Below, in pieces: positions 1,651-59,755 of a DNA stretch of 64,000 nucleotides. The DNA is from Dictyostelium firmibasis. Lineage: Eukaryota; Evosea; Eumycetozoa; Dictyosteliales; Dictyosteliaceae. The position numbers were made by a program, and so were the translations under genes. The notes below the pieces were generated by a model. That model did not search any database. It was given only the letters and a program-made list of their open reading frames with translations, and was not told where the DNA came from. The stretch covers positions 1,718,501-1,782,500 of the forward strand of contig CM069769.1 in the NCBI GenBank assembly GCA_036169595.1, in the 5' to 3' direction. Position 1 is the stretch's first letter. Each line of letters starts with the position of its first letter.

Positions 1651-1862
1651 CCGGGGGCTTAGCGTGGTGGTTCCACGCTGAATCACAAGCCTCCGTGGTC
1701 AAGACCTTGGGTTCGAGTCTTGGTCATACCACGAAGTAACGTGGTCATAATTAAACCCTCATTATTGGAGGCTATACGTAGTGGTTCTGCGCTGAATCAC
1801 ACAGTCTCCGTGGCCTTGGTTCGAGCCTTAGGTCATACCACGAAGTAACGTGGTCATAAATA
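1651..1862 (+). mobile_element. tRNA-like dimeric retroposon, family D, copy 1
   Basis: Two head-to-tail tRNA-like units start at about 1653 and 1766. Each has an A-box-like segment (TTAGCGTGGTGGTT; TACGTAGTGGTT), a B box (GGTTCGAGTCTT; GGTTCGAGCCTT) and the terminal hairpin CCACGAAGTAACGTGG. The arrangement is almost base-for-base that of 20780-20990. No clean 3' tail is visible; it runs into more TRE3 debris, so this copy is incomplete or rearranged. There is no coding capacity. Confidence 0.65.
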
Positions 1863-17023: not shown

Positions 17024-17037
17024 AAAGTATTCAAATT

Positions 17038-17177
17038 TTTTTTAATAACTTCATCCATTAGGATGTGTTCGAATCATGTTTTTATTTTTATTAATTATTT
17101 TAATATAAATTTTATTTTCTGTGACCACGTTATTTCTTAGTATGAACAAGACTTGAGCCAAGGCCACGGAGGCTGTG
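17038..17177 (-). mobile_element. tRNA-like retroposon, family U, copy 1 (5'-truncated)
   Basis: Read on the minus strand it has CACAGCCTCCGTGG, a B-box-like CTTGGCTCAAGTCTTG, the end-hairpin region ACTAAGAAATAACGTGG, an A/T-rich body, then ATTCGAACACATCC and a poly-A end (T-run on plus). The head is missing before CACAGCC. It is flanked by AAAGTATTCAAATT (17024-17037) and AAAGTATTAAATT (17180-17192), a near-perfect target duplication. Confidence 0.75.
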
Positions 17178-17190
17178 AAAAAGTATTAAA

Positions 17191-17362
17191 TTTTTTTTTT
17201 AATAACCTCATCTAATTGGATGTGTTCGAATCTAGTTTTTATTTATTAATTATTTAAATTCAAATTTTTTTTCTGTGACCTCGTTAATTTGTGGTATGAC
17301 CAAAACTTGAACCAAGGCCATGGAGGCTGTGTTATTCTGTGTGAACAACTAAGCTATCACTC
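17191..17362 (-). mobile_element. tRNA-like retroposon, family U, copy 2
   Basis: Fuller copy directly behind copy 1: minus-strand A box TAGCTTAGTTGTT, B box GGTTCAAGTTTTG, hairpin CCACAAATTAACGAGG, body, ATTCGAACACATCCAATTAG and A-run. The distal flank AATATTCAAATTA (17363-17375) is the third version of the same target sequence. The head end lies about 41 bp upstream of tRNA-Gln copy 1, in antisense orientation to it. Confidence 0.78.
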
Positions 17363-17403
17363 AATATTCAAATTAGAGCTGTGATATTCATGAAAAATAT
17401 TAA

Positions 17404-17476
17404 GGTTTTATAGTGTAATTGGTTAGCACCCAGGACTTTGAATCCTGTAATCTGAGTTCGAGTCTCAGTAGAACCA
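17404..17476 (+). tRNA. tRNA-Gln(UUG), copy 1
   Basis: 73-nt cloverleaf. GGTTTTA pairs with TAGAACC, anticodon stem CAGGA/TCCTG holds loop CTTTGAA (anticodon TTG), and the T arm is CTGAGTTCGAGTCTCAG. A T7 terminator follows directly. Identical by eye to the copies at 20558 and 24259. Confidence 0.95.
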
Positions 17477-20557: not shown

Positions 20558-20630
20558 GGTTTTATAGTGTAATTGGTTAGCACCCAGGACTTTGAATCCT
20601 GTAATCTGAGTTCGAGTCTCAGTAGAACCA
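20558..20630 (+). tRNA. tRNA-Gln(UUG), copy 2
   Basis: Same 73-nt sequence as the copy at 17404, anticodon TTG, followed by a T5 terminator. Confidence 0.95.
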
Positions 20631-20779: not shown

Positions 20780-21089
20780 CCGGGGGGCTTAGCGTAGTGG
20801 TTCCACGCTGAATCACAAGCCTCCGTGGTCAAGACCTTGGGATCGAGTCTTGGTCATACCACGAAGTAACGTGGTCATAATTAAACCCTCATTATTGGAG
20901 GCTATACGTAGTGGTTCTGCGCTGAATCACACAGTCTCCGTGGCCTTAGTCCGAGCCTTAGGTCAGACCACGAAGTAACGTGGTCATAAATAACACACCT
21001 CATAATCAACCGGAAAAAAGCTCGACTTCCAAAAAAAAAACAACAACAAAAAAAAAAAAACATGGTGATTAGAAATTCTAATCCCAATA

Positions 21090-21129: not shown

Positions 21130-21167
21130 ACAATATCAGATAGTATCCATAAACCATACTTCACTCT

Positions 21168-24186: not shown

Positions 24187-24259
24187 TGGTTCTACTGAGA
24201 CTCGAACTCAGATTACAGGATTCAAAGTCCTGGGTGCTAACCAATTACACTATAAAACC
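24187..24259 (-). tRNA. tRNA-Gln(UUG), copy 3
   Basis: Same 73-nt tRNA on the minus strand, anticodon TTG. Its 5' side faces a family-U retroposon 40 bp away; its 3' side has the external B box and a TRE3 insertion. Confidence 0.95.
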
Positions 24260-24299
24260 TTTTATATATTTTAAAAAAAAAATAGCTAAAATTTGATAT

Positions 24300-24476
24300 G
24301 GGGTGGGGGCTTAGTGGTTTCACACAGAACAACACAGCCTCCATGGCCTTGGTTCAAGTCTTGGTCATACCACGAATTAACGTGGTCACAGAAAAAAAAA
24401 TTTAAAATAAAATAATTAATAAATAAAAACATGATTCGAACACATCCAATTGGATGAGGTTATTAAAAAAAAAAAA
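24300..24476 (+). mobile_element. tRNA-like retroposon, family U, copy 3
   Basis: Full-length element with a G-rich 5' end, GGGGGCTTAGTGGTTTCACA, B box GGTTCAAGTCTTGG, hairpin CCACGAATTAACGTGG, A/T-rich body, ATTCGAACACATCC, palindrome ATCCAATTGGAT, GAGGTTATT and A-run. The flanks TTGATAT (24293-24299 and 24477-24483) are a likely short target duplication. It lies 40 bp upstream of tRNA-Gln copy 3, antisense to it. Confidence 0.8.
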
Positions 24477-24520: not shown

Positions 24521-24626
24521 GGTCATACGAAGAATTAAGGTCAAAAAAAAAAAAATTAAAATAATTAATAAAAATATAAACATTATTCGAACACATCCAA
24601 TTGCATGAGGTTATCATAAAAAAAAG
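24521..24626 (+). mobile_element. Family U, copy 4 (5'-truncated)
   Basis: Begins at GGTCATACGAAGAATTAAGG (the B-box 3' side and hairpin) and runs through ATTCGAACACATCCAATTGC to an A-run. ATATTGGAA flanks it exactly (24512-24520 and 24627-24635). 5' truncation with a target duplication is typical of target-primed reverse transcription. Confidence 0.8.
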
Positions 24627-53640: not shown

Positions 53641-53863
53641 AAATTTACCTTCACTCTTTTTTTTTATTCTTTATTTGATCTATCTAATTGCTAATTTCTT
53701 CTTTGATTATAAAATCGCAGTTTTTTATTCTTTAATCAACTTCAGTGTTTACTATTTTTTAAAAAACATTGTGAATGATGTTTCCATTTTGAACTACTCT
53801 ATTTTAATATTTACAATTGAATTCTTAAAAGATAATCTGCAAATTTATTTTGAAAGGTTCACT

Positions 53864-54048
53864 CTTTTTTTTTTAATAACCCAATTGGATGTGTTCGAAT
53901 CATGTTTTTATTTTTTAATTATTATAATTTTAATTTTTTTTTCTGTGACCACGTTAATTCGTGGTATGACCAAGACTTAAACCAAGGCCACGGAGGCTGT
54001 GTAATTCAGTGAAACCACTATGCTAATTCAACCCCCCCCCCCCCCCCC
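53864..54048 (-). mobile_element. tRNA-like retroposon, family U, copy 5
   Basis: 185-bp element on the minus strand: a G17-18 run, TTAGCATAGTGGTTTCAC, B-box-like TTGGTTTAAGTCTTGG, perfect hairpin CCACGAATTAACGTGG, A/T-rich body, ATTCGAACACATCCAATTGG, GTTATT and A-run. It is flanked by AAAGGTTCACT at 53853-53863 and 54050-54060 (exact). It has no frame. Confidence 0.88.
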
Positions 54049-54060
54049 GAAAGGTTCACT

Positions 54061-54242
54061 TTTTTAATAACCTCATCCAATTGGATGTGTTCGAATCTAG
54101 TTTTTATTTATTAATTATTTTAATTTAAATTTTTTTTTATTCTGTGACCACGTTAATTCGTGGTATGACCAAGACTTGAACCAAGGCCATGGAGGCTGTG
54201 TTATTCTGTGTGAAAACACTATGCTAAGCCCCCCCCCCCAAA
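54061..54242 (-). mobile_element. tRNA-like retroposon, family U, copy 6
   Basis: Second, tandem copy with its own G10 head, A box TTAGCATAGTGTTTT, hairpin CCACGAATTAACGTGG, palindrome ATCCAATTGGAT and A-run. The outer flank AAAGGTTCACT at 54243-54253 repeats the same target a third time. Its head lies 44 bp upstream of tRNA-Trp, antisense to it. Confidence 0.88.
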
Positions 54243-54286
54243 AAAGGTTCACTCCTAAAGCTCTTTAATATTTTTTTAATCATAAG

Positions 54287-54373
54287 GACTCCTTAGCATA
54301 GTGGTTTATTGTAATTGTCTCCAAAACGTTAGAAGCAAGCAGTTGGTCCAGGGTTCAACTCCCTGAGGGGTCT
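54287..54373 (+). tRNA. tRNA-Trp(CCA) with 13-nt intron
   Basis: Acceptor GACTCCT pairs with AGGGGTC (one wobble). Anticodon arm ATTGT-CTCCAAA-GCAGT is completed only after removing the intron at 54325-54337 (AACGTTAGAAGCA), placed one base past the anticodon as in nuclear tRNA introns. The T arm is CAGGGTTCAACTCCCTG. The discriminator is T. Confidence 0.85.
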
Positions 54374-54403
54374 AGTTTTTCAAAGAAATATGTTAAGAGC
54401 GTG

Positions 54404-54836: not shown

Positions 54837-56078
54837 ATGAGTTACGCGGAAATTGTGACTATAAACAGTCCACCTCTCAATCACATTGATGAAGAAACGA
54901 CGAGCTTCATCGAATTATTAAAAACATCAAATGCCAAATACGAAAATTTCAACGACCGTCTAGAGGCGTATTCTAAGGAGATCGACAAATATTGCGAACT
55001 CATTAACGATGCCAACTTGACGGCCTACCAAAGGAACAATGACCATTTCCCAGTCACCTTTGAATTCCCGGGAGCCTCCAAAGAGGTGCTAGAGGCAAAA
55101 AAATTAGAATTATCAAAATTCAAAATTCCATTGGAGAACCTCTTCATATCGAAAGGCAAGAGAGCTAGAATACACGCTCTCATCAAGCACGAAAGCTCAT
55201 TAGCAGACGTGCTAGACAACAGAGCCAAACTCGGCTCCTTCTACACCTCCAGTAGAGACTTTCATGTGCTCACTGGTTCAATCAAAATCAAAGAGGAAAA
55301 GGTGGAAACAGTGAAAAAAACAATAAATGCTGTCACTCCTCTAAACACTCCCTTCTCCTTCTACCATTCAAAATACCTCAATGGCCACCTCTCAATATTC
55401 GGCCTAATAGAGTACAAAAGGGACGATAAAATCACCAATATAAACTCGTCCACTTACAACTTTAAAACATCAATAAGATGCGCCACCAGAGCCATCTACA
55501 ACGAAAAGAAATTCAAAGCCTCTTCAACCGAAAATGGCAAGGTCGAGATCAAAGCATCCGCCACAACAGCCGAAACAAAACCAGCTCACTCCGGTAAGAA
55601 AAAGGCTAACAAAAAGAAAAACAAAAAGGTGTCCCCAAGCGAGAAGGAGAGCTCGACTGTCATTACTCCGCCAGCACCTACCCAAGCACCCACCACCCAA
55701 AACACCTCTACTCAGAAGAACTCAAGCCAAATGGTTTCTGAGTCCATTCCTCCTACACTACTCTCAACCTTGGGCGATCTCATCGATTCCTGCGATACCG
55801 AAGATGAACAAACGAACCCGCAAACCTCGGGAACTACCACCTCTCAGGTAACAGATGGCCTCAAAAAAAGAGCATCACCAGAACTGCTGTCTGACGACAC
55901 ACCAAGAGCAGCACCTTACCATCCAAAAACGCCGGCAAACAATACCAATAGCACACCAATAGAATTCGAATTGGAATCTCCTTACACACCTCCCAGAAAA
56001 GATCTTGGCAACTCCAATCCCAAAGACAGTTCTGATAATTTGTTGGTGGCGATTCTCACTGCTAAGAACCAATCCTGA
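54837..56078 (+). CDS. TRE3 ORF1 protein
   Basis: 413 residues beginning MSYAEIVTINSPPLNHIDEE. No zinc knuckle or coiled coil stands out. A Lys-rich patch (SGKKKANKKKNKK, about residue 252 on) could bind nucleic acid, and the last third is Thr/Ser/Pro-rich. ORF1 products of LINEs usually package the element RNA; TRE3 ORF1 has no established fold that I can recognise. Its stop TGA overlaps the ORF2 start (TGATG). Confidence 0.85.
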   Translation: MSYAEIVTINSPPLNHIDEETTSFIELLKTSNAKYENFNDRLEAYSKEIDKYCELINDANLTAYQRNNDHFPVTFEFPGASKEVLEAKKLELSKFKIPLENLFISKGKRARIHALIKHESSLADVLDNRAKLGSFYTSSRDFHVLTGSIKIKEEKVETVKKTINAVTPLNTPFSFYHSKYLNGHLSIFGLIEYKRDDKITNINSSTYNFKTSIRCATRAIYNEKKFKASSTENGKVEIKASATTAETKPAHSGKKKANKKKNKKVSPSEKESSTVITPPAPTQAPTTQNTSTQKNSSQMVSESIPPTLLSTLGDLIDSCDTEDEQTNPQTSGTTTSQVTDGLKKRASPELLSDDTPRAAPYHPKTPANNTNSTPIEFELESPYTPPRKDLGNSNPKDSSDNLLVAILTAKNQS

Positions 56079-59000
56079 TGGGTCTCAAAATGACCATTAA
56101 CCAATGGAATGTCAGAGGGTGGAGTACTGACAGGTCATTTAGTCAAAAAACAAACCTTATCGAAATCCTTTCAGATAAGAACACTCCCACAATCACAGTA
56201 GTAAATGAACTAAACGCAGACTTTACAGCTGCCAATCTAAGCTTCCCCGGTTCAATTATTAGTGTCTCAAGCAGAGGTAACGGCATTGGCATCCTCAATC
56301 ACAACAACAACTCTATCAAAATCACACCCAAAATTATCATCGAAAGTAGAGCCATACTGGCAGAAATATGTGTTAATAGCCTCTCTATTTCAATACTCGC
56401 CATATATGCCCCGGCAAACCCAGAAAAAAGAAAGAGCTTCACAGAGGAACTCAGAAAAATTTATAACGACCTCTGCCTAACTATGACAGAAAAAATTGAT
56501 ATCATTGCAGGCGACTTCAATTGTCTAGATTTCAACGATCTAAACGAGGAAGGTCAATCTGAGAATCCAGACGAATTAGCTTCTCTCATCGAATCAATAA
56601 GATTTACGAATAACCTGCGAGATATGGACCCAGAAAAGAAACACACATTCTTGAGAATACACAAAGATCAAAACCAAGTAGTCACCAGAACAATCACAAG
56701 ACGATTGGACAGGATATACATATCAAACAGCCTTATCGATTTCGGTAACCTCAACTTCCAAAATATTATTCCTCCTTCAGTTGACGGAACCCCGTTGTCT
56801 GACCACAACTTCATATCCACTGGCCTCTTGCTAAACACTACTCTCCAATCATCTAAAAGGAACAGATGGAAATTAAAAAACACCTCTATCCTAGCCAATC
56901 CCATGCTGGCAAAAGTTGACTCAATTTTAAAAGACGCTAACCAACTCAACTCTGATTTTCCTGGCTCTTTTGGTTTCAATCAACTGCAATCTCTAATTTC
57001 GAGAATTAAATTGTTATACCAAGAATTTCAAAAACAAGGAGACTACAACGCGAAAGCCATCACAAATAATCTCAAAGACCTTCTTCAATCGGATTTAAGA
57101 GACTATGCATACAACGCACTTCTGGCAATCAAAGACTCAAAAAAAATCGATATGAAAATGAGATCAGATCTACGAAACTATTGCGAAGAAACCTCTCTTA
57201 AATACATCTCAGCAAAGATCAAAAAAAGAACTTTGGACTTCAAACTAGATGCCATTAAAAACGATGAAGGAGTCACCATTAGAGACCAAACGGGAATTGA
57301 AAATGAATTTTTCAATTTTTATAAAACTCTATATGATCTCAAACCAGATTCTCCAAGAGAACACATCGACATGCTAAAACATTGGAAATTTCAACAAGAT
57401 GAAAGTTGGACAGAACTAGATAAGGATTTTTCGGAGGAGGAAATTATCGAAGTTATAAACCAGCTGAATCCAAATAAATCTCCCGGACCAGATGGTATCA
57501 CCAATCTCTTCTTTATTACACACAAAAAGAAATTGGCACCCCTTTTAGCCTCAGCATTCAATGATTCACTAGAAAACCCTTTTAAAATCAATAAAAAACA
57601 TAAAGAAGGACTCATTATTACTATTCCAAAAAAAGGCGATCCAGAATTAATTAAAAACAGAAGACCAATTACTCTGGCAAACTGCATCTACAAAATCCAG
57701 TCAAAGACCATCAATAATAGATTAGTTAAGATTCTTCCCAAAGTAATCAACACCAATCAAAAAGGTTTTGTCCCAGGAAGATTTATTTTGGACAACATTT
57801 TTACTATCAATGAAACGATATCGTATTGTAACCAAAAGAATTTAAACGGGATAATAACTTTCTACGATTTCGAAAAGGCCTTTGATTCAATCTCTCACGA
57901 TTCAATCCTTAGAACACTACTCCATATTAATATCCCGTACAAAATAACCAATCTTATTATGAGTCTTTTAACAGATTCAGAAGCAAGAGTAGAAGTAAAC
58001 AACAACAAAACACAACCTTTCATTATTAAAAGGGGAGTAAAACAAGGAGACCCTTTATCACCGACCCTTTTCGTACTAGTTATCGAATCTCTGGCTAGAG
58101 TAATATTGGAAGATAACAACATAACAGGACTACCTTTAAACGATGGACCACAAAGAGAAAAATTCCAAGGCTTCGCGGATGATTCGACTTCTTTGGTAGA
58201 GAATAAAAATCAACTAAAAATGGTTCTTAAACACTTCAACACCTTTTGTAAAGCAACCTCCTCCAAATTAAATCTGGATAAATCAGCATCGATAGTTCTG
58301 GGTAATACAAACTACAATGGAATCGAGATTCCGGAGTCAAATAACCCAGAAAGATACCTTGGATACTTCTTCACTAAGAATGGTATCCACAGGAAAATGC
58401 CTGAAATTCTGAGATCAATTCGAGCATCTCTTTTACTTTGGAAAACAACAGGGACCACGGTAAAAACTAAAACTAGCATTCTTAAAGCCTTCGCATTATC
58501 AAAACTAACATACTTTTCATATATTGAAAAATACAATGAGAATGAACTGAAACAAATTAACAAAATAGTGGAATGGTTCCTTTCGGCCTCAAACTACAAA
58601 AACTCCACAGGATTCAATGTTATTAATCTCATGAGCGCAAGAAGATCAAGATACCCAATGGAACAAGGTGGGTGGAATATATGGGACATCGAACAAAGAC
58701 AAAAAGCCCAAAGACTGTGGATAATCAACGAATTCATCCACGCACAAGAAAACAATTCATTGTCATCAGCCACTCATAAAAGCTGGAACTTTCAATTAAC
58801 ATCAAATAGAATTACCTCACAATTTCTAAAGAGTAATATAGATGATTGGAACAAATGTAGAACTAAAAGAGGAATTTTCCGATTCGCCATTTCAATAAAA
58901 AATCAATCGGGTCTTCCCTTATCTCTATCTGAATGGTATAAAGAAATTGACTCCAAAGAGGAAAGAATACCTAAAACCTTTCTCCAAGATAATCTTTCTA

Positions 59001-59755
59001 TGAGAGGGTATAACTATAACTTCCTTTTCACCAACATACTAAATATCAAAGATCCAAAAACTAAAAACACAATGTTTAGATTTCATTCGAGATGCCTCCC
59101 TCTAAACTATCTCCACGAAAAACCATGCCCAATGTGTAATACTAACATGTCTATTGATCCATACGGTCACCTATTCTTTAGCTGCACAAAAACAAAAAAC
59201 TTCATAAATATTAACAAACTAAAAAATTTCGTCTTTGTGACAACAGGTAGACTTTCAAACTGGACGGTGGATAGAGCGATTGTAAATGGAAAACCAATTA
59301 TCAAAATATTTCCAAAATTCAATAACAATACTCCAACCGATAACCAAATCAATCCTGACTACGGAATAGAAGCCTTCCACAAGCCTTACTTCACATGGTG
59401 TTATAAAGCCATTAATTATGACTTAAACAGATCATATGCATACAATAATGTAATAGCATTAATCATGCATCACATATGGATATGGATTTGTAATCAATTG
59501 TATGGTAACAAAGAGCTACAAGATACCAATCTGGATTTTGAAATGCTAACAAACAAATGGCACCAACTAGCTTCTATGGAATACATCAAATTATTAAAAG
59601 AATATAAATTATCGATGGCCAAAGAACCAGAAAGATTCAATGATATCAACTCTTATAATAATAATATAAAAATAATCAAAAACAGGATTTCAAAAAAATA
59701 CTGTATATTAAGAAAATCTCTCCCTAATAATGTGATTGTTGACTTTTTCATATAA
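56078..59755 (+). CDS. TRE3 ORF2: endonuclease and reverse transcriptase
   Basis: 1,225 residues. The N-terminal apurinic-type endonuclease shows VNELNADF, IDIIAGDFNCLDFNDL and PLSDHNFIS. The reverse transcriptase shows KGFVPGRFILDNI, ITFYDFEKAFDSI, KQGDPLSPTLFVLVIES and catalytic FADD at 699-702. A C-terminal zinc knuckle has C1017, C1020, H1031 and C1036 (CPMC...GHLFFSC). It nicks the target and copies the RNA by target-primed reverse transcription. It is full length with no internal stop, so it may be active. ORF2 starts at the ATG inside TGATG, which implies reinitiation after ORF1. Confidence 0.95.
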   Translation: MGLKMTINQWNVRGWSTDRSFSQKTNLIEILSDKNTPTITVVNELNADFTAANLSFPGSIISVSSRGNGIGILNHNNNSIKITPKIIIESRAILAEICVNSLSISILAIYAPANPEKRKSFTEELRKIYNDLCLTMTEKIDIIAGDFNCLDFNDLNEEGQSENPDELASLIESIRFTNNLRDMDPEKKHTFLRIHKDQNQVVTRTITRRLDRIYISNSLIDFGNLNFQNIIPPSVDGTPLSDHNFISTGLLLNTTLQSSKRNRWKLKNTSILANPMLAKVDSILKDANQLNSDFPGSFGFNQLQSLISRIKLLYQEFQKQGDYNAKAITNNLKDLLQSDLRDYAYNALLAIKDSKKIDMKMRSDLRNYCEETSLKYISAKIKKRTLDFKLDAIKNDEGVTIRDQTGIENEFFNFYKTLYDLKPDSPREHIDMLKHWKFQQDESWTELDKDFSEEEIIEVINQLNPNKSPGPDGITNLFFITHKKKLAPLLASAFNDSLENPFKINKKHKEGLIITIPKKGDPELIKNRRPITLANCIYKIQSKTINNRLVKILPKVINTNQKGFVPGRFILDNIFTINETISYCNQKNLNGIITFYDFEKAFDSISHDSILRTLLHINIPYKITNLIMSLLTDSEARVEVNNNKTQPFIIKRGVKQGDPLSPTLFVLVIESLARVILEDNNITGLPLNDGPQREKFQGFADDSTSLVENKNQLKMVLKHFNTFCKATSSKLNLDKSASIVLGNTNYNGIEIPESNNPERYLGYFFTKNGIHRKMPEILRSIRASLLLWKTTGTTVKTKTSILKAFALSKLTYFSYIEKYNENELKQINKIVEWFLSASNYKNSTGFNVINLMSARRSRYPMEQGGWNIWDIEQRQKAQRLWIINEFIHAQENNSLSSATHKSWNFQLTSNRITSQFLKSNIDDWNKCRTKRGIFRFAISIKNQSGLPLSLSEWYKEIDSKEERIPKTFLQDNLSMRGYNYNFLFTNILNIKDPKTKNTMFRFHSRCLPLNYLHEKPCPMCNTNMSIDPYGHLFFSCTKTKNFININKLKNFVFVTTGRLSNWTVDRAIVNGKPIIKIFPKFNNNTPTDNQINPDYGIEAFHKPYFTWCYKAINYDLNRSYAYNNVIALIMHHIWIWICNQLYGNKELQDTNLDFEMLTNKWHQLASMEYIKLLKEYKLSMAKEPERFNDINSYNNNIKIIKNRISKKYCILRKSLPNNVIVDFFI

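Follow-up and report, generated by a model that had tools for sequence, protein, structure and literature searches.

A tRNA-like SINE family of Dictyostelium firmibasis that probably borrows the tRNA-gene targeting of a TRE5-like LINE

Introduction

Short interspersed elements (SINEs) that share their 3' ends with long interspersed elements (LINEs) are well known, and LINEs that target tRNA genes are well known in Dictyostelium. Starting from a 64-kb stretch of the Dictyostelium firmibasis genome (the window), we describe a repeat family, designated U, in which these two phenomena appear to be joined, a SINE having inherited the targeting of tRNA genes. At the level of sequence, U is a family with a defined structure, insertion marks, an aim at tRNA genes, and an end in common with a LINE of the same aim. 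We give a probability of roughly 0.87 to the reading that U is a tRNA-like, LINE-dependent SINE of about 173 bp that borrows tRNA-gene targeting. We infer that a LINE encoding a 1159-amino-acid protein mobilizes it and supplies the targeting in trans.

In their insertion behavior, the TRE5-A and TRE5-A.2 retrotransposons of D. discoideum resemble U: their insertions stand upstream of tRNA genes at a distance of about 47 bp, the 5' end is turned toward the gene, extra bases occur at the 5' junction, and poly(A) and target duplications are present; in addition, TRE5-A.2 is mobilized in trans, the route proposed here for U (PMC5391098, PMC5633606, PMC5006619). Of 98 TRE5-A reference copies, 59.2% are reported at 47 ± 3 bp, with the 5' end always toward the tRNA gene (PMC5391098). 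TRE5-A.2 lacks open reading frame 2 (ORF2) but keeps a part coding for ORF1, whose protein has been tied to target detection (PMC5391098), whereas U codes for nothing, so that it would need help in trans for both reverse transcription and targeting. The promoters differ as well, tRNA-like in U and residing in the A module in TRE5-A, and the 173-base consensus of U is too short for the ORF1 and ORF2 products (endonuclease, reverse transcriptase, and zinc finger) of a TRE5 element. U works like TRE5 but is not a TRE5 element.

Two further systems offer partial parallels. The tRNA-derived SINEs with a "stringent" partner LINE have a tRNA-like head, an unrelated body, a LINE-identical 3' end that can fold as a stem-loop, and an A-tail, as U does; in the account given in PMC3747384 they are not described as directed to a class of genes, whereas most U copies lie at tRNA genes. 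The R2 and R2/R1 SIDEs of Drosophila ribosomal DNA are likewise short and non-coding, rely on the machinery of a LINE with a specific site, and insert at that site, but they are internally deleted LINEs cotranscribed with 28S rRNA and, according to their own authors, not SINEs (PMC3414825). The head of U, in contrast, is of the RNA polymerase III (Pol III) type and unrelated to the LINE. For V, a sister family of U, the nearest likeness is TRE3, which is found downstream of tRNA genes in the same orientation (PMC5911963); V differs from TRE3 in being a non-coding dimer of tRNA-like units.

Among the titles and abstract openings listed by a literature search, with Repbase and most subscription papers outside its scope, none describes a dictyostelid SINE family or a tRNA-gene-targeted SINE. 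A first-pass annotation of the window, made by a model from the sequence alone, had likewise noted that no described Dictyostelium SINE was known to it. The word "SINE" does not occur in the main text of the D. firmibasis assembly paper (PMC11193728), nor do "SINE" or "firmibasis" in that of a survey of dictyostelid tRNA-gene neighborhoods (PMC5006619). Default RepeatMasker output lists 88 "SINEs" for D. discoideum and 57 for D. purpureum, the family not being named in that passage (PMC4683709). Transposable elements in the D. firmibasis assembly were sought by tblastx against D. discoideum Repbase entries (PMC11193728), a screen that would not be expected to detect a non-coding SINE.

Materials and Methods

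The genome searched was that of D. firmibasis (31,455,843 bases in 12 contigs, the largest of 9.41 Mb); the published TNS-C-14 assembly is reported to comprise 31.5 Mb in 12 contigs, the main ones ranging from 9.4 Mb downward, and to have 379 tRNA genes (PMC11193728). The main U sample consisted of 100 places among the matches listed by position for an exact 23-mer, 64 of them on contig C1. It was enlarged with regions around some other U matches, with reverse transcriptase loci, and with the window, and merging gave 110 stretches (305,277 bases). On these, the tail is reached by 131 U copies, of which 104 have a full head; the copies form 92 stacks, each of 1 to 4. Counts of stacks and targeting given below describe this sample of copies, which lie on contigs C1 to C6, and are not genome totals. 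Genes for tRNA were called with ARAGORN, and those of two more near stacks were recognized by eye. Distances from U to a tRNA gene were taken to the first matched base of the profile, so that the real junction is a few bases nearer the gene. The placement of V was sampled at 20 exact hairpin sites on C1, with 421 bases fetched for each.

Results

The first-pass annotation had placed two non-coding units of a tRNA-like retroposon at 53864..54242 of the window. Both are present, with their sense strand on the minus strand, and the flanking duplication claimed for them, AAAGGTTCACT, occurs exactly three times in the 64 kb, to the left of, between, and to the right of the units. The perfect hairpin ascribed to each is complete (ATCCAATTGGAT) at 54075 and is not found in the unit at 53864, and the B box of that same unit is changed (GGTTTAAGTC). 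All four of the further copies proposed at 17.0 to 17.4 and 24.3 to 24.6 kb are real, and those starting at 17036 and 24521 are clearly 5' truncated. The duplications attributed to them exist as short direct repeats that are less exact than AAAGGTTCACT: AGTATTCAAATT at 17026, AGTATTAAATT at 17182, and AATATTCAAATT at 17363 in the 17-kb stack, and TTGATAT at 24293 and 24477 in the 24-kb stack. In each of the three stacks a U head lies close to a tRNA gene, at gaps of 45, 47, and 40 bp.

53853..53863, no strand: target-site duplication AAAGGTTCACT, tail side of U copy 1
53864..54048, minus strand: U copy 1, complete, head expanded to 17 G, changed B box, tRNA-distal in the stack
54050..54060, no strand: target-site duplication AAAGGTTCACT between U copies 1 and 2
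54060..54240, minus strand: U copy 2, complete, tRNA-proximal, head 45 bp from the tRNA-Trp gene
54243..54253, no strand: target-site duplication AAAGGTTCACT, tRNA side
54286..54374, plus strand: tRNA-Trp gene, presumed target, with transcription leading away from the U head
17036..17180, minus strand: U copy, 5' truncated
17191..17356, minus strand: U copy without the G-run, 47 bp from the tRNA-Gln gene
17404..17476, plus strand: tRNA-Gln gene, presumed target of the 17-kb stack
24187..24259, minus strand: tRNA-Gln gene, presumed target of the 24-kb stack
24300..24470, plus strand: U copy, complete, head 40 bp from the tRNA-Gln gene
24521..24626, plus strand: U copy, 5' truncated within the hairpin region

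The annotation's larger proposal, a mobile tRNA-like SINE family in this genome, holds genome-wide: the copies share a single consensus with poly(A) and a fixed 3' end, and both target duplications and 5' truncations recur. A genome search with consensus building and tabulation of flanks gave ends that are consistent on the 3' side and duplications above the null. The consensus, from a profile built on 94 complete copies, is 173 bases long and reads, from 5' to 3', GGGGGG CTTAGCATAGTGG (containing the A box, TAGCATAGTGG), GGTTCAAGTC (the B box), the hairpin CCACGAATTAACGTGG, an A-rich stretch, GATTCGAACACATCCAATTGGATGAGGTTATT, and an A-run. Conservation of the A-box and B-box segments is 0.956 and 0.975 (104 copies), and the head thus has the promoter elements expected of a Pol III-type SINE. 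Because GT precedes the G-run in 70 of 101 copies, U probably begins GTGGGGGG. Non-templated addition was considered as the source of the G-run and rejected; with GT before the run and lengths clustering at 5 to 6, we assign the run to the element itself, and a few copies have an expanded run (for example, 17 and 11 in the window). The absence of T-runs was also considered as a mark of selection by Pol III and was set aside as not clean, TTTT being present in 27 of the 101 copies.

U is a short, non-coding, dispersed repeat with about 200 copies. The 27-base hairpin pattern has 199 genome sites at up to 2 mismatches (0 for a reversed-pattern control), and 238 sites match the 3'-end pattern with no more than 3 mismatches. 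The hairpin count was preferred to 303 B-box matches (up to 3 mismatches), which can include family V, whose first unit is 2 bases off the pattern. The 104 head-bearing copies diverge from the consensus by a median of 2.3% (range, 0 to 7.3%), and such low divergence makes the family look young.

The marks of insertion are those of a SINE. Flanking duplications of at least 8 bases, with leading A's excluded and up to 6 extra 5' bases allowed, accompany 59 of 101 head-bearing copies versus 3.6% of mismatched flank pairs, and a stricter first pass (3 extra bases) found duplications of at least 9 bases at 42 of 101 versus 2.4%. Most are 9 to 13 bases long, and short variable stretches separate the duplication from the U head, much like the additional 5' bases described in TRE5-A (PMC5391098). 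An A-run of 9 to 23 ends 97 of 101 copies, and 27 of the 131 copies that reach the tail lack the full head. The 3' end folds as a small stem-loop (z, -2.0; 5 of 200 shuffles fold equally well). Among 36 distinct tRNA sequences, the head comes closest to tRNA-Trp, with 16 identical bases and a score of 32 versus a shuffle maximum of 26 (n = 100). Rfam, applied at gathering score to 36 fetched loci, reported tRNA genes only and no family matching U.

A point absent from the first-pass annotation is that most U insertions are, on the sequence around them, aimed at tRNA genes. In 56 of the 92 stacks an antisense tRNA gene lies 38 to 70 bp from the head (54 by ARAGORN and 2 by eye, one of the latter with an apparent intron and one cut at the end of the fetched stretch), and in 18 more such a gene lies on the head side at 71 to 7000 bp. 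For a random point and strand, the chance of an antisense tRNA gene at 38 to 70 bp is 2.0e-4, assuming 379 tRNA genes. The distances are narrowly distributed, with 33 of the 54 measured near ones at 44 to 50 bp and 46 at 42 to 52 bp. Counted by the 100 places of the main sample, 53 are in near stacks, 21 have a farther head-side antisense tRNA gene, 13 have none, 2 show other geometry, and 11 are unassigned to stacks; 8 of these last have a head-side antisense tRNA gene at 33 to 554 bp, and 3 do not. U is thus placed as TRE5 is, head first, antisense, and upstream of tRNA genes.

The same pattern could in principle arise without targeting, if random insertions survived only beside tRNA genes in a compact, intolerant genome, and the reported gene density of 70.6% (PMC11193728) is favorable to that idea. 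Selection of this kind would not be expected to yield a single orientation and spacing, and yet, of 68 stacks in which an antisense tRNA gene lies on the head side within 1.5 kb, 51 are at 40 to 58 bp, while other geometries within 1 kb account for 4 of 92 stacks; we consider survival without targeting extremely improbable.

Stacks could also be explained by local tandem duplication, that is, by unequal crossing-over via short repeats, which would leave head-to-tail units with the same short repeat between them, as is seen. Pairwise identity, however, is 95.1% within stacks (30 pairs) versus 95.6% between stacks (5326 pairs), the observed mean being reached in 1768 of 2000 permutations; moreover, members of some stacks are truncated at different points, and sampled copies are spread over contigs C1 to C6. 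Local duplication is on these grounds scarcely credible. Since neighbors in a stack are no more alike than copies across stacks, the stacks look like repeated, separate insertions at one distance from a tRNA gene.

At off-pattern stacks, inspection of the head side by eye found that several enter the tails of other repeats, with T-runs followed by a LINE-like end or with a repeat resembling a long terminal repeat (LTR), which suggests, from cases that were not counted, that later insertions pushed in between U and the tRNA gene. One repeat, with start TGTAATGAACTGC and end GAATTATCACA, stands at the head side of the stacks C1:7792163, C1:9056254, and C5:215957 and near C1:935488; we presume that it resembles a DGLT-A-type LTR.

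A candidate helper, likewise absent from the first-pass annotation, was found at two loci, L069 and L070, whose LINE copies are 99.5% identical over 5.5 kb. The L070 copy has an intact ORF1 of 414 amino acids and an ORF2 of 1159 amino acids, the latter matching the reverse transcriptase family RVT_1 in Pfam at an E value of 8.8e-35; ORF1 had no Pfam family match, and no zinc finger was reported. The LINE lies antisense to tRNA genes, 46 bp upstream of tRNA-Ile at L070 and 44 bp upstream of tRNA-Glu at L069, with duplications TTATCTTTTAA and, less clear, ATATCTAAA, respectively, and its 5' untranslated region contains tandem repeats of about 182 bp at both loci. Two ORFs, a reverse transcriptase, and this position are what a TRE5 element would be predicted to have. 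The final 32 bases of U ahead of its A-run are identical to those of this LINE, both copies of which end in GATTCGAACACATCCAATTGGATGAGGTTATT plus an A-run; this would make it the partner LINE in the sense used for SINEs.

This shared end is also what would be expected if U were a solo module or an internally deleted derivative of TRE5 rather than a SINE with its own promoter, the alternative raised by the first-pass annotation, and the non-autonomous TRE5-A.2 of D. discoideum provides a precedent (PMC5391098). The alternative holds for the 3' end only. The U head and hairpin have no match inside the LINE at L069 or L070, only outside it (E values up to 1e-3), a comparison that did not extend to D. 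discoideum modules; the A and B boxes belong to U, and its length is too short for a TRE ORF. With its head absent from the LINE at these loci, U also lacks the two LINE-derived ends of a SIDE. We judge a TRE5 derivative highly improbable and retain a SINE with a Pol III-type head.

A second TRE5-like LINE 3' end, CTGTAATATCCAATTTAAAA, was observed at locus L015 (about 1200 to 1400) and often stands between U and the tRNA side of stacks.

BLAST with U also revealed V, a dimeric relative with two tRNA-like units and a different tail that has a stem-loop of its own (z, -4.0); the V hairpin is matched at 367 unit sites with up to 3 mismatches allowed. In the V sample, a tRNA gene lies upstream in the same orientation at 15 of 20 sites and in the opposite orientation at 0 of 20, with none in the fetched bases at 5 of 20. 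At the 14 of these 15 sites where a V head was located, it starts 60 to 177 bp past the tRNA end. TRE3 is reported at 40 to 150 bp downstream of tRNA genes, in the same orientation (PMC5911963), and the placement of V is this TRE3 pattern. Three places in the window bear V sequence.

1653..1856, plus strand: V, dimeric tRNA-like head, atypical tail, 623 bp downstream of tRNA-Lys 957-1029, same orientation
20782..20986, plus strand: V, dimeric head, 151 bp downstream of tRNA-Gln 20558-20630, same orientation, aactacaatatcagat on both sides
near 21167: V fragment

No partner LINE for V was found among the LINE 3' ends collected or by its tail pattern. The window also holds a TRE3-like LINE at 54837-59755, downstream of tRNA-Trp in the same orientation, with an ORF1 of 413 amino acids and an ORF2 of 1225 amino acids (reverse transcriptase), and several near-identical copies of it exist in the genome. 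A third repeated tRNA-like unit, with end GAGTTCGAACCCCATACGACTCGTTAGCATAAA, stands beside A-runs at L137, L148, L066, and, in part, L143 and is perhaps another SINE.

Discussion

Our observations are best explained by the following model for U. Pol III would transcribe the element from its own A and B boxes, giving an RNA that would end in a stem-loop and an A-run matching the end of a TRE5-like LINE, an identity seen in the sequence. LINE proteins would take up this RNA in trans and carry it to Pol III factors bound at a tRNA gene, where a nick about 47 bp upstream would allow it to be copied in by target-primed reverse transcription. The copies found are mostly head toward the tRNA gene and antisense to it. 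Each later insertion would fall at the same spacing, separating the earlier copy from the tRNA gene, and head-to-tail stacks would build up in this way.

Several observations weigh against this reading. As to targeting, no tRNA gene was found within the fetched DNA for 14 of the 92 stacks, and 4 of the 92 have another geometry. As to the element, 42 of 101 copies showed no duplication of at least 8 bases, the tRNA of origin of the head is weakly supported, transcription by Pol III is a prediction, and TTTT, a possible Pol III stop, lies inside 27 of 101 copies. As to the helper, ORF2 is broken into several frames at L069, one of the two long LINE copies; the endonuclease match of the L070 ORF2 (Exo_endo_phos, 3.7e-4) is below the Pfam cutoff; and the LINE-specific 3' end is rare, with 4 genome sites (3 exact and 1 with 3 mismatches), so that U outnumbers its presumed helper by about fifty to one. 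In addition, one substitution separates the U end from a LINE-like end at C1:1898493 (L037), which is preceded by a different coding end. The tail of a second TRE5-like LINE is also common.

Because of these last two observations, the helper may not be the 1159-amino-acid LINE, or not that LINE alone. The main helper or helpers could be the TRE5-like LINE with the tail CTGTAATATCCAATTTAAAA or the one ending at C1:1898493. The former tail is positioned after a reverse transcriptase of a 1163-amino-acid type at L015, that type is represented by 10 full-size members among the matches listed, the tail adjoins several U stacks, and ATCCAATT is found in both tails. Against this, only the 1159-amino-acid LINE, of those with a reverse transcriptase observed, has the whole 32-base end, and the tail CTGTAATATCCAATTTAAAA is tied to the 1163-amino-acid type by one locus. 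We regard a different set of main helpers as rather unlikely and keep the 1159-amino-acid LINE as the candidate.

Two loci raise the question of how U itself is seen by the targeting machinery. At C1:7786046 and C4:3154884, U stands head to head with another U, 44 and 46 bp apart, respectively, with no tRNA gene in that geometry; the head-to-head copies are inserted inside the palindrome of the tail of a third, neighboring U, and the first locus has a second copy (C1:7786246) stacked behind. A divergent-pair pattern at 45 to 75 bases recovered 3 loci, one U-U pair and two in which U faces a tRNA-Trp-like start, whereas control spacing of 76 to 106 gave none and a reversed control gave 1 match. 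Of the 4 genome sites of a tail-junction pattern, the two U-U loci account for 3. These arrangements suggest that U heads bind Pol III factors. They also fit a preference for the palindrome, since in a stack a distance of 45 bp upstream of one U head leads into or close to the palindrome of the neighbor. A wider proposal is tentative, and we would bet against it at present: the targeting machinery might read U as a Pol III gene, making it a landing pad for its own kind; U and V might be a matched pair of SINEs, one for each tRNA-targeting route; and copying and targeting might come wholly in trans.

If the borrowing of tRNA-gene targeting by U is true, target choice can be delivered to an RNA that codes for nothing, whereas TRE5-A.2 brings its own ORF1, and insertion at safe genomic sites would have a 173-base RNA as its minimal substrate. 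This would help to explain why hundreds of SINE copies are tolerated in a compact genome. TRE5 requires Pol III factors to insert, and for that reason the insertion sites of U may also report the positions of those factors in living cells.
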